Both the position numbers and the translations under genes were made by a program. Shown piece after piece: positions 10,493 through 30,341 of a stretch of DNA of 64,000 bases (positions within the stretch are counted from its first letter, which is position 1; every line of letters begins with the position of its first letter). The notes beneath the pieces were generated by a model that saw only the letters and a program-made list of their open reading frames with translations, was not told the origin of the DNA and made no database searches. Where the stretch lies: assembly GCF_004339545.1 (NCBI RefSeq), contig NZ_SMGD01000016.1:124001-188000 (forward strand), read 5' to 3'. This stretch comes from Celerinatantimonas diazotrophica. Lineage in GTDB: Bacteria > Pseudomonadota > Gammaproteobacteria > Enterobacterales > Celerinatantimonadaceae.

Positions 10493-11056
10493 GTGTATTT
10501 GAACTGGCAAGAATTAATTACTCACTATGGTTATTTTGCGATAGTTGTAGGCACCTTTTTCGAAGGGGAGACTATTTTAGTTTTAGCCGGTGTGCTTGCT
10601 CACCATGGCTACTTGAATCTTTATGGTGTGGTGGGGGCTGCGTTCCTAGGGACATTATTTGGCGATCAGTTGTATTTCTTGATTGGTCGACATAAAGGAA
10701 TGAAGTGGATCAATGCCCGTCCAAAGTATAAGCGCAAAGTGAGAAAAATTTTTAGGTTGCTCAACCGCCACCAGATCTTATTGATATTGGGATTCCGCTT
10801 TTTATATGGCATTCGGACTGTGACACCATTTGTGTTGGGGGCGGCAGGGATCTCCCCTAAGTTGTATGTGCCGTTGAATCTATTAGGTGCTGGTGTTTGG
10901 GCAATTGCGGTTGGATTACTTGGCTATTGGTTTGGCCAAGCAATACAGGTTATTTTGGAGCAAATGCACCATTATGAATATTGGTTTTTGAGCATATTAG
11001 TCGTATTTGCTGTCGTTATCGTGCTTGGACTGTATTTAAGACGGCAAAAACGATAA
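10493..11056 (+). CDS. DedA family membrane protein
   Basis: About 187 residues, VTT/DedA fold with five or so hydrophobic segments. Hallmarks are GTFFEGETILVLAGVLAHHGYL near residue 20-40, GDQLYFLIGRHKG, and FRFLYGIRTVTPFVLGAAG. DedA proteins such as UptA-type members translocate undecaprenyl phosphate and support proton-motive-force and drug resistance. The start is uncertain: GTG at 10493 overlaps the only good Shine-Dalgarno, GAGAGG at 10488-10493, whereas TTG at 10499 stands 5 nt behind it and is the better candidate. Divergent from the epimerase gene. Confidence 0.85.
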   Translation: MYLNWQELITHYGYFAIVVGTFFEGETILVLAGVLAHHGYLNLYGVVGAAFLGTLFGDQLYFLIGRHKGMKWINARPKYKRKVRKIFRLLNRHQILLILGFRFLYGIRTVTPFVLGAAGISPKLYVPLNLLGAGVWAIAVGLLGYWFGQAIQVILEQMHHYEYWFLSILVVFAVVIVLGLYLRRQKR

Positions 11057-11249
11057 TTAAAGAAAAAAATTTTAATTTTTTTGTAAAACTAGATGCTATC
11101 CGGTTCCATATTGAATCATAATTTGATTAAATTAGCAGCATATTGTGATGTTGGTCGCATTTTTATCGCAATACTTTAATTGGCGGAATTATAAGCTATG
11201 GCAAATTTCTTGCATTTAAATTCACATCCCCGGATTGTTGGAGAAAATA

Positions 11250-11387
11250 ATGGTTAGATCGTGTTTCCGTGGAGCATCTGGCGTTTCTGTTTCTGTTCGT
11301 CCTTGCTCTCAGTCATCAAATGGTTCAAAAAGCGCGCTCCCTAAGTTAGGGACGTATATTTGTAAAAAGGATATTGCAAAAAAGTAG
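11250..11387 (+). CDS. Small ORF, 45 codons, ending at a -1 frameshift-type slippery site
   Basis: ATG with GGAG 6 nt upstream, then 45 codons rich in Ser, Lys and Arg, and two consecutive TAG stops. I do not recognise the protein. The last codons are GCA-AAA-AAG-TAG, so a zero-frame A-AAA-AAG heptamer (11378-11384) sits on the stop. In the -1 frame translation would continue for 27 codons to TGA at 11465-11467. The 72-residue product would have a basic N-terminal half and an acidic C-terminal half (begins VVDSSDSEDP, ends EPELTTA). A 19-codon ORF (11198-11257) overlaps the start and could couple translation. Alternatives are a decayed gene with a one-base frameshift, or a structured RNA in which the ORF is incidental. 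Confidence 0.5.
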   Translation: MVRSCFRGASGVSVSVRPCSQSSNGSKSALPKLGTYICKKDIAKK

Positions 11388-11455
11388 TAGACAGTTCGGA
11401 CTCTGAAGACCCTCTTGCTCAAAAACCTCTGATTGAGCAATGGGAGCCCGAGCTG
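11378..11455 (+). promoter_or_regulatory. Putative -1 programmed ribosomal frameshift signal
   Basis: Heptamer A-AAA-AAG in the zero frame, 7-nt spacer containing both stops, then a 12-bp stem (11392-11403 with 11444-11455, one G-U and one A-C mismatch). That stem encloses an 8-bp perfect inner stem, TTGCTCAA/TTGAGCAA, at 11415-11422 and 11433-11440. Heptamer, spacer length and downstream structure fit the dnaX and IS3-type pattern. It is read directly from sequence; function is inferred. Confidence 0.5.
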
Positions 11456-11489
11456 ACAACCGCCTGATTAAAGTCGATTATATCCTAAT

Positions 11490-11520
11490 AGCGAAGCCTT
11501 TGAGCTTCGCTATTTTGTTT
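11490..11520 (+). terminator. Strong intrinsic terminator after the small ORF
   Basis: TAGCGAAGC / GCTTCGCTA, 9 bp perfect, 6-nt loop, followed by TTTTGTTT. It shows that the 11.25-11.5 kb segment is a transcription unit of its own. Confidence 0.85.
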
Positions 11521-11585: not shown

Positions 11586-11682
11586 CTAGATTATTTTTAT
11601 TGAGCTCTTTTAAAAGGAATCTGGCAGATGCTTGATCTGCCAGATTTATTGGTTGTGTCTATTAGTGAGATAAATGAAAAGG

Positions 11683-12207: not shown

Positions 12208-13212
12208 CTATTTAGCCGAGGCTTGCTCACTGCTTTGCAGCGCTTGCTGGATCTGCTTTTCAAAAGCCTTAAGACGTTTATAAATTGAAAGCAGTTCAAC
12301 AATGGTGGTCCATGAGTAGACCAGAAACTGAAACGAATTTTCAACCTTATCGAAAGCTCGCAAAATTTGTTGTAAAACCCCTAGTGTGATGACTCCGGCG
12401 ACAATGGTCGGGCCGAGAAAGACATAGGGTAAAATGGTGGTGTATTGTAGATAAGACCACTTGGCAATATCGAAATAAAGATAGTGTTTATACAGAGTGA
12501 AGTAGTTTTTTCGGATATTTTGGAATAATTCTTTGACTGTCTCAGGATGGGCTCTGTCTGCTTCATCCTCGCCGTAGACTAGCTCTTTACGATAAGCGGC
12601 TTCTACCCTTTGGTTTTTAAACTCCAATCCCGGTAATTTAATGCCGACTAATGCCAATAAAACAGTGCCGAAAATGGCCGAAAGTATAGCTAGGTAGATC
12701 AGCGAGTGGGGGACTGCTCCAATCCATGGTAGTTGAGTGACTTGCTTTGAGAGCACCCACAGAATAGGTAAGAATGCGATGAGTGTCATGATGGATTGGA
12801 CTAGACTCGAGCCTAGTCCTTCAACAATTCTAGCAAAGCGCATAGTATCTTCCTGAATACGTTGAGATGCCCCCTCAATATGGTGAATTTGCGGCCAATA
12901 CTGCATGTAATAATCATTCATGGCTTGGCGCCAGCGAAAGACATAATGGCGGACGAAAAAATCCAGTAAGACGGCAACAATGATGTAAACAGAAACAATA
13001 TTGAAAAAGTCGAGACAACCCATTAATAGGTCGTGGAGAGTGACTGAATGCGATTTGGAAAGAGCATCTTGAATGAGGTTATAAAATGAACCAAACCATT
13101 CATTTACTTTGACATCGATTTCTACTTTGTACCATGTGACTCCCAAAATGAGCAATGTGCCTAGAACAGACCAATGCAACCACCGCTTATTCAAAAAGAA
13201 TGATCGAAACAT
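12208..13212 (-). CDS. sbmA: SbmA/BacA family peptide transporter (short form)
   Basis: 334 residues. SbmA is a proton-driven homodimeric inner-membrane importer of antimicrobial peptides, microcins and related compounds. The family blocks VEAAYRKELVYGEDEADRA, FTLYKHYLYFDIAKW and the closing YSWTTIVELLSIYKRLKAFE are all present. Against E. coli SbmA (about 406 residues) the N-terminus starts alike (MFRSFF) but then joins directly to the region after the first membrane helix, so some 60-70 residues are missing. I start at the ATG behind AGGATTTGGG, nine codons inside the longest frame. Monocistronic, with its own terminator. Confidence 0.85.
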   Translation of the reverse strand: MFRSFFLNKRWLHWSVLGTLLILGVTWYKVEIDVKVNEWFGSFYNLIQDALSKSHSVTLHDLLMGCLDFFNIVSVYIIVAVLLDFFVRHYVFRWRQAMNDYYMQYWPQIHHIEGASQRIQEDTMRFARIVEGLGSSLVQSIMTLIAFLPILWVLSKQVTQLPWIGAVPHSLIYLAILSAIFGTVLLALVGIKLPGLEFKNQRVEAAYRKELVYGEDEADRAHPETVKELFQNIRKNYFTLYKHYLYFDIAKWSYLQYTTILPYVFLGPTIVAGVITLGVLQQILRAFDKVENSFQFLVYSWTTIVELLSIYKRLKAFEKQIQQALQSSEQASAK

Positions 13213-13487
13213 CCCAAATCCTATTATTGTGTAATGCAAAATTGTAACGCTGATATTGTTAGGTCATCAGTAGCGAAAAAAGTGCCATATTGGAAAAAAG
13301 AATTTTGAAAAGTAACTGGCAACTTTGTTTCTATGTAACGCTAACTGAAAATGCCTTCGTTTCACTCAGGCATTGACTATCATACGAATTTCTTTGTAAT
13401 TATGAGTAATCTTTGTGTAAAGATCGCCTGTAGGCGAAATTCCCACATTACCACAACAAAAGGGGAAGAAGTAAATCTACTGGGTGA

Positions 13488-29987: not shown

Positions 29988-30157
29988 TTACCAGGCCCTA
30001 ATAGCTCCGTTATTGGTGGCACTGGATAAATAAATCAATAGCTTTACTATAACGGAAAGCATAACAATGCTCATCAGTTATCACCAATAAGGTGGGTGAG
30101 ATTTATCTGATGCTGTGAGTTATTCCTGTGAGAAATATCTGTGCAAGAAAGAGAAGA

Positions 30158-30334
30158 GAACCCAGGGTGGCGCTGTCAAGTTTTTCCCTTGAACCGAAAA
30201 GTTCAAGGCGGGCTATAAATTTAGTTACCGTAGGCTTCTCAGTACGTGCTGAGCTTGCTCAATAGCAATAAAGTATAACCCTTATACTGTAGTATCGGCA
30301 GAGGAGCAACTGACTGACGCTCACCCCAGGTATT
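30158..30334 (-). ncRNA. ssrS: 6S RNA
   Basis: On the minus strand, 5' ACCTGGGG pairs with the 3' CCACCCTGGGT end, and between them are the conserved TGCCGAT, a central bubble, GAGCAAGCTCAG, CTGAGAAGCCTACGG and the hairpin GCCTTGAAC-TTTTC-GGTTCAAGG. These are the landmarks of E. coli and Vibrio 6S RNA. It mimics an open promoter and traps sigma-70 RNA polymerase in stationary phase. The position just downstream of zapA and upstream of ygfA is the conserved synteny. Ends are approximate by a few bases. Confidence 0.93.
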
Positions 30335-30341
30335 AAACAGT

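Follow-up and report, generated by a model that had tools for sequence, protein, structure and literature searches.

A small gene of Celerinatantimonas with the signals of a candidate programmed −1 ribosomal frameshift

Does translation of a short gene of Celerinatantimonas diazotrophica end at the stop codon that directly follows two of its lysine codons, or do some ribosomes continue in another frame? The gene lies within the window, the whole 64,000-nucleotide stretch of DNA that was analysed, between a DedA-type gene (VTT domain) and, on the opposite strand, a DUF3545 gene and an SbmA-like transporter gene. A preliminary description preferred a programmed −1 frameshift, and this reading is supported by the heptamer, stop codon, spacer and compensatory stem that are found in a second species of the genus. 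Judged from the two sequences, a programmed −1 frameshift at A-AAA-AAG is the probable explanation, and the single-gene transcript would give rise to a basic 45-residue protein together with a 72-residue, acidic-tailed form. The features that enter the argument are as follows, in window coordinates.

10493–11056, forward strand: DedA-type gene, 5′ of the small gene; matched at E ≤ 1e-10 in 3 of 12 family genomes, one of these matches being weak (27% identity)
11199–11214, forward strand: sigma-54-type promoter element TGGCAAATTTCTTGCA (−24/−12); same element in both species
11240–11243, forward strand: Shine-Dalgarno sequence GGAG of the small gene, 6 nt 5′ of the ATG; likewise in the second species
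11250–11387, forward strand: zero-frame open reading frame of 45 codons and TAG, MVRSCFRGASGVSVSVRPCSQSSNGSKSALPKLGTYICKKDIAKK; 45 of 45 codons align without a gap to the second species
11368–11371, forward strand: Shine-Dalgarno-like AGGA, candidate 5′ stimulator; at equal distance from the slip site in both species
11378–11384, forward strand: slip site A-AAA-AAG, directly 5′ of TAG; identical in the second species
11384–11467, forward strand: −1 frame tail of 27 codons and TGA, VVDSSDSEDPLAQKPLIEQWEPELTTA; open in both species
11392–11455, forward strand: candidate stimulatory hairpin, from folding and pairing comparison; outer stem 11392–11403/11444–11455, inner stem 11415–11422/11433–11440
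11487–11514, forward strand: intrinsic terminator, an 11-pair stem followed by a T-rich tail
12208–13239, reverse strand: SbmA-like peptide transporter, 343 amino acids (NCBIfam PRK11098, 507 bits, above cut-off; also PRK12369)

The zero frame begins with the ATG at 11250 and comprises 45 codons to 11384, the last of which read GCA-AAA-AAG in the sequence; TAG follows at 11385–11387 and is itself followed by a second TAG. The −1 frame opens at the G of the heptamer (11384) and closes with TGA at 11465–11467, and the recoded gene measures 218 nt from the start codon to this last stop. The terminator stem begins 19 nt past the −1 frame stop. The 45-residue protein is rich in Lys and Arg, carries a net charge of +8 in both species and contains three conserved Cys residues, and the tail has a net charge of −6 in the window and −3 in the second species. 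This layout bears out the preliminary description, which had listed a 45-codon reading frame with a good Shine-Dalgarno sequence, 27 further codons in the −1 frame for a 72-residue product with basic and acidic halves, and a terminator that closes the unit. Most likely, the small gene yields both the basic 45-residue protein and the 72-residue form with the acidic tail.

One other genome of the genus was searched (G001), and it carries the gene at the same place, with a DedA gene before it and with DUF3545 and a transporter gene, the translation of which was read by eye, after it. Among 60 genomes, including that of the window, this is the one strong homologue outside the window's genome. The two zero frames share 32 of 45 residues. 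Their differences fall 10, 9 and 26 times on codon positions 1, 2 and 3, and 17 codons differ silently and 13 with an altered residue. Estimates of dN and dS for the zero frame are 0.27 and 1.73 by NG86 and 0.31 and 0.96 by YN00. The codon-position pattern and these ratios argue that the zero-frame codons are under purifying selection and that selection very probably maintains the 45-residue protein as a genuine product.

The second species keeps the distance of AGGA, the heptamer, the TAG, the 7-nt spacer and a −1 frame that is open to an aligned TGA. As the preliminary description had envisaged, a search of translated relatives uncovers the heptamer and a stem with compensatory changes amid flanking codons that vary; of the two halves of the protein, the zero-frame half is conserved and the tail is conserved only near its two ends, with its middle unaligned. 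No homologue with an unbroken zero frame was encountered, the only credible one having the same A-AAA-AAG-TAG. Because the slip site and the hairpin are kept in a second species, the arrangement looks programmed rather than like a broken gene. In the aligned sequences of the two species, the 45 codons are under coding constraint and all parts of the signal are conserved; the occurrence and efficiency of the shift, the activity of the promoter and a role of its own for the tailed form are what we infer beyond this.

The slip site lies in the zero frame on Lys-Lys, is of the X_XXY_YYZ type and is present in both homologues (2/2). Its position on the stop codon and the 7-nt spacer, both stated in the preliminary description, are confirmed (heptamer 11378–11384, stem from 11392). 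The codon before AAA-AAG is GCA in the window and ATA in the second species, with the heptamer unchanged, and the first Lys codon of the upstream CKK is AAA in one species and AAG in the other. AGGA is located about 6–7 nt upstream of the heptamer, within the 6–17 nt of the rule for the optional Shine-Dalgarno-like element. AAAAAAG occurs at 29 sites on the two strands of the window; a helix of at least eight pairs is present at three of them, a Shine-Dalgarno-like element at four, and both at one, which is 11378–11384. Both genomes of the genus have a single instance of the combined motif of heptamer, TAG and stem, and the 10 other family genomes have none (at most two mismatches).

In addition, four tRNA-Lys genes per genome, all perfect matches with anticodon UUU, were found by a pattern search (at most two mismatches) in the window's own genome (G000) and in G001; since this search was pattern-based, a divergent tRNA with anticodon CUU could escape it. 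The four tRNA-Lys (UUU) genes of G000 are confirmed by ARAGORN, which detects no tRNA in four further stretches that were checked. A sole tRNA-Lys is linked to slippage on A-AAA-AAG in the excerpted text of PMC5009743.

Downstream of the slip site, the outer stem was originally described as 12 bp enclosing a perfect 8-bp stem. The inner stem is indeed a perfect 8 bp in the window and is absent from the second species; the outer stem falls short of the full 12 bp because of an A-C mismatch (A11400/C11447), and 11 of its 12 pairs form, one as G-U. The hairpins of both species start 7 nt after the heptamer with a C-G pair, span 64 nt in the window and 67 nt in the second species, and have energies of −24.2 and −21.7 kcal/mol, respectively. 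Rules for the stimulator hairpins of bacterial −1 frameshifting, as given in an excerpt of PMC4066793, call for a start 4–10 nt past the heptamer, a length of 17–140 nt, a G-C first pair and at least 7.6 kcal/mol, and both hairpins agree with these rules in start distance, first pair, length and energy.

The stem of the second species has 11 bp and differs from that of the window by two double-sided changes that keep the pairing: G-C in the window versus A-U at column 7, and C-G versus U-A at column 10. Column 4 is U-G in the window and U-A in the second species; column 9, a U-G pair in the second species, is mismatched in the window; and column 12 is paired in the window and unpaired in the second species. 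Ten of the 11 aligned columns are paired in the window, and all 11 are paired in the second species. When the same three and four arm changes are placed at random, 11 of 11 pairs are kept with a probability of 0.00045 (0.005 if a transition bias is assumed), for a covariation that rests on two sequences. The stretch 11385–11520, which takes in the terminator, folds with a z of −4.5 (0 of 200 shuffles as good), and its counterpart in the second species with a z of −1.6 (15 of 200). By chance, a helix of at least the observed length and correctly spaced is formed by 3.8% of 5000 shuffled sequences in the case of the window (eight pairs, G-U allowed) and by 0.7% in the case of the second species (11 pairs); because of a G-U, the helix of the window has three pairs when Watson-Crick pairs alone are counted.

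According to the frameshift reading, the transcript would start, probably at the sigma-54 promoter, run to the terminator and encode the basic 45-residue protein. In some ribosomes, the P-site and A-site lysine tRNAs would move back by one base on A-AAA-AAG. The upstream AGGA and the hairpin, which begins 7 nt past the heptamer, would aid the slip in the manner of dnaX and IS3-type elements. Ribosomes that do not slip would stop at UAG and release the 45-residue form, and those that slip would pass through the hairpin and add the acidic tail of 27 residues, for a product of 72 residues. The tailed form may have a role of its own; its acidic tail could, for instance, counterbalance the core's charge of +8.

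The tail itself bears on the most serious alternative. It comprises 27 codons in the window and 28 in the second species, and the two versions, 3 nt apart in length, end at an aligned TGA. The residues DSS near its start and E-EL near its end are kept, and the middle is unaligned. The codons of the kept residues lie within or next to the stem arms, so that RNA pairing could be enough to account for their conservation. A −1 frame open for this length is obtained in 25% of mononucleotide shuffles for the window and in 19% for the second species, in which the openness is not special because the zero frame past its single TAG is also open, for 28 codons. The zero frame of the window meets the second TAG at once and then continues for only 13 codons. 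A role of the tail as protein is something we infer, and a constraint from pairing alone is a live rival to it.

The gene could accordingly be read as an ordinary 45-residue protein that ends at TAG, followed by a hairpin that serves as a 3′ RNA element (in stability, processing or as a 3′-derived small RNA) and by an incidental −1 frame, an explanation that we hold to be unlikely. The poor conservation of the tail outside the stem arms and the ease with which the −1 frame opens by chance are in its favour, and a sigma-54-type promoter with a short transcript would suit a regulatory RNA also. However, it leaves unexplained why A-AAA-AAG, AGGA and the 7-nt spacer are fixed amid changing codons and why the TGA is shared after a length difference of 3 nt. 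In addition, no Rfam family reaches its gathering score at the small gene.

A transcript with a leader-like or dual function is quite improbable; here the frameshift would act to melt the hairpin or alter the stability of the mRNA, and the tail would have no protein function. With the shift, translation would traverse the entire hairpin and stop shortly before the terminator stem, and the tail sequence is barely constrained; however, there is no co-directional gene downstream, the next gene (DUF3545) being on the other strand, and the 45-residue protein is itself under purifying selection. Slippage of RNA polymerase on the A run, by which an extra A in the mRNA would join the −1 frame, is very improbable. 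Poly-A sites are usable in either way according to the excerpted text of PMC3711429, but the run consists of six A's, versus a length of about 8–9 or more by the excerpted text of PMC1088944 and PMC3711429. In a large share of genomes, selection against slippage-prone runs is evident once a run is nine nucleotides long (PMC1088944, in excerpt). Polymerase slippage would, moreover, not need a conserved hairpin and AGGA.

Hardly any credence is given to readthrough of the zero-frame UAG with the hairpin as stimulator, which would be compatible with the open zero frame of the second species but not readily with the tandem TAG and the short frame beyond it in the window, and which would not need A-AAA-AAG. 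The same holds for an artefact or decayed gene, for which nothing speaks beyond the interrupted frame: a sequencing error at 11378–11384 is very unlikely because the six A's and the stop recur in the separately assembled genome of another species, and the frame-shifted relic that the preliminary description had offered as an alternative is very unlikely too, with the signal present in a second species and the zero frame under purifying selection.

The start of the transcript is suggested by TGGCAAATTTCTTGCA, which lies 36 nt before the ATG, and by TGGCAAATTTTTTGCA of the second species, 37 nt before it. The −24/−12 pattern is the one used for sigma-54 promoters, and in both species a conserved TGGCA-N6-TTGCW is found upstream of the start. 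Genome-wide, G000 contains TGGCANNNNNNTTGCW 45 times, versus 10 times for the reversed control pattern, and G001 contains it 30 times, versus 12. The sigma-54-type element, which like AGGA had not been listed in the preliminary description, probably starts a single-gene transcript; if the promoter is active, the transcript would hold only the small gene. Consensus patterns for NifA, NtrC, GlrR and LuxO were applied to the 400 nt upstream in both species and gave no match, and no perfect IHF consensus was found there. Nitrogen control was considered, since 11 of the 12 family genomes have a nifH match that passes its cut-off, and was set aside with no NifA or NtrC site upstream. A wider reading is that the gene stands for a non-mobile, sigma-54-driven micro-gene family in which a dnaX-like frameshift would set the ratio of a basic isoform to one with an acidic, autoregulatory tail; it is offered tentatively, as possible though somewhat short of probable.

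The distribution of the gene was surveyed with a profile (A2) of 46 columns and two rows, composed of the 45 zero-frame residues and the first −1 residue. Within the family, 2 of 12 genomes match at E ≤ 0.1, both in the genus. For the order and the class a sample of genomes was used, and for some genomes scoring covered only a portion of the first-look candidates. Seven of 394 genomes of the order match at E ≤ 0.01, and the five outside the genus (18.9–22.8 bits) were read and judged to be chance; 2 of 369 genomes of the class match at E ≤ 0.001, namely the window's genome and a 21.8-bit match with internal stops, also judged to be chance. With the 72-residue query, 14 of the 60 genomes (the window's included) match at E ≤ 1, and the 12 outside the genus all have E > 0.1. 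No relative was found in genome contigs (two scans), viral contigs, plasmids (72-residue query) or phages (73-residue query), in collections that may omit records near the window; 14 pattern matches in one genome-contig scan and nine in viral contigs were not confirmed. Around DUF3545 in the 10 other family genomes, neither the promoter pattern nor AAAAAAGTAG or AAAAAAGCAG is present. In the samples and collections searched, there is no credible homologue outside the genus.

The small protein has no match in NCBIfam, PHROGs, PADLOC or PDB sequences (the last searched with A2). In Pfam, NifT is hit by the window protein below cut-off (E = 0.13) and was rejected, and the protein of the second species has no match. 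The statement in the preliminary description that no family with this protein was known agrees with the finding that no family model of Pfam, NCBIfam or PHROGs scores above its cut-off. An AlphaFold2 model of the 45-residue protein alone is uninformative (mean pLDDT 55.8). Among the matches listed from the open PMC literature on bacterial frameshifting and on Celerinatantimonas, no paper on this gene was recognised. As far as these searches go, the gene, its small size and its apparent sigma-54 control are new, and the class of mechanism is known.

In dnaX, the two stimulators are an upstream Shine-Dalgarno-like element, about 10 nt before the heptamer, and a hairpin that is smaller than that of the small gene. 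In the small gene, AGGA lies 6 nt before the heptamer, and the hairpin is larger and branched. Similar to dnaX, the small gene has A-AAA-AAG with two stimulators (PMC3711429, in excerpt). The place of its stop codon is that of the reversed dnaX arrangement of some bacteria: by the excerpted account of PMC5009743, the zero frame of that arrangement ends immediately past the shift site, and the longer product is the one made by shifting. Unlike dnaX, the gene encodes an unrelated small protein, and the shift would add a 27-residue acidic tail.

The OrfA-OrfB arrangement of IS3 and IS911 is also similar, with a Shine-Dalgarno-like element, a heptamer of the A-AAA-AAG type and a hairpin 4–10 nt downstream; the hairpin of IS911 is branched, and the IS3-type product is a longer fusion (excerpts of PMC4066793 and PMC5009743). 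In contrast to these elements, the small gene has no transposase match in Pfam, NCBIfam or PHROGs and has the same neighbours in both species. It occupies a single locus in its own genome, with neither the domains nor the mobile copies of an IS3-family transposase.

The GeneTack survey reports 146 conserved frameshift clusters, several of the largest being transposases, and the small gene resembles these clusters in its disrupted reading frame, conserved slippery heptamer and longer product (PMC3711429, in part). The survey looked for them in clusters with five or more members, and the small gene is so far known from one genus; the same excerpt allows for orphan genes with programmed frameshifts among the cases left unclustered, and one of its section titles asks why most programmed frameshifting is in mobile elements (PMC3711429). 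Small recoded orphan genes can escape both many-member clustering and annotation in which a gene is closed at its first stop codon. A self-contained cellular gene of 218 nt with a complete signal, a hairpin with compensatory changes and apparent sigma-54 control would be a compact natural system for testing the purpose of isoform ratios set by frameshifting.

With regard to the neighbourhood, DUF3545 is present in 12 of 12 family genomes. The DedA gene and the small gene look like a genus-level addition, because the DedA gene is matched in only 3 of the 12. The SbmA-like transporter is located two genes from the small basic Cys-containing protein, with a matching reading, by eye, in the second species. 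A microcin-like role was considered because of this transporter and, with no further evidence, was not adopted. A second strong inverted repeat, terminator-like, with 12 perfect base pairs and a loop of 5, is present at 11617–11647 in the gap before DUF3545. Elsewhere, a 6S RNA (RF00013) at 30155–30335 on the reverse strand, with 78.9 bits, is the window's only Rfam match at gathering score.
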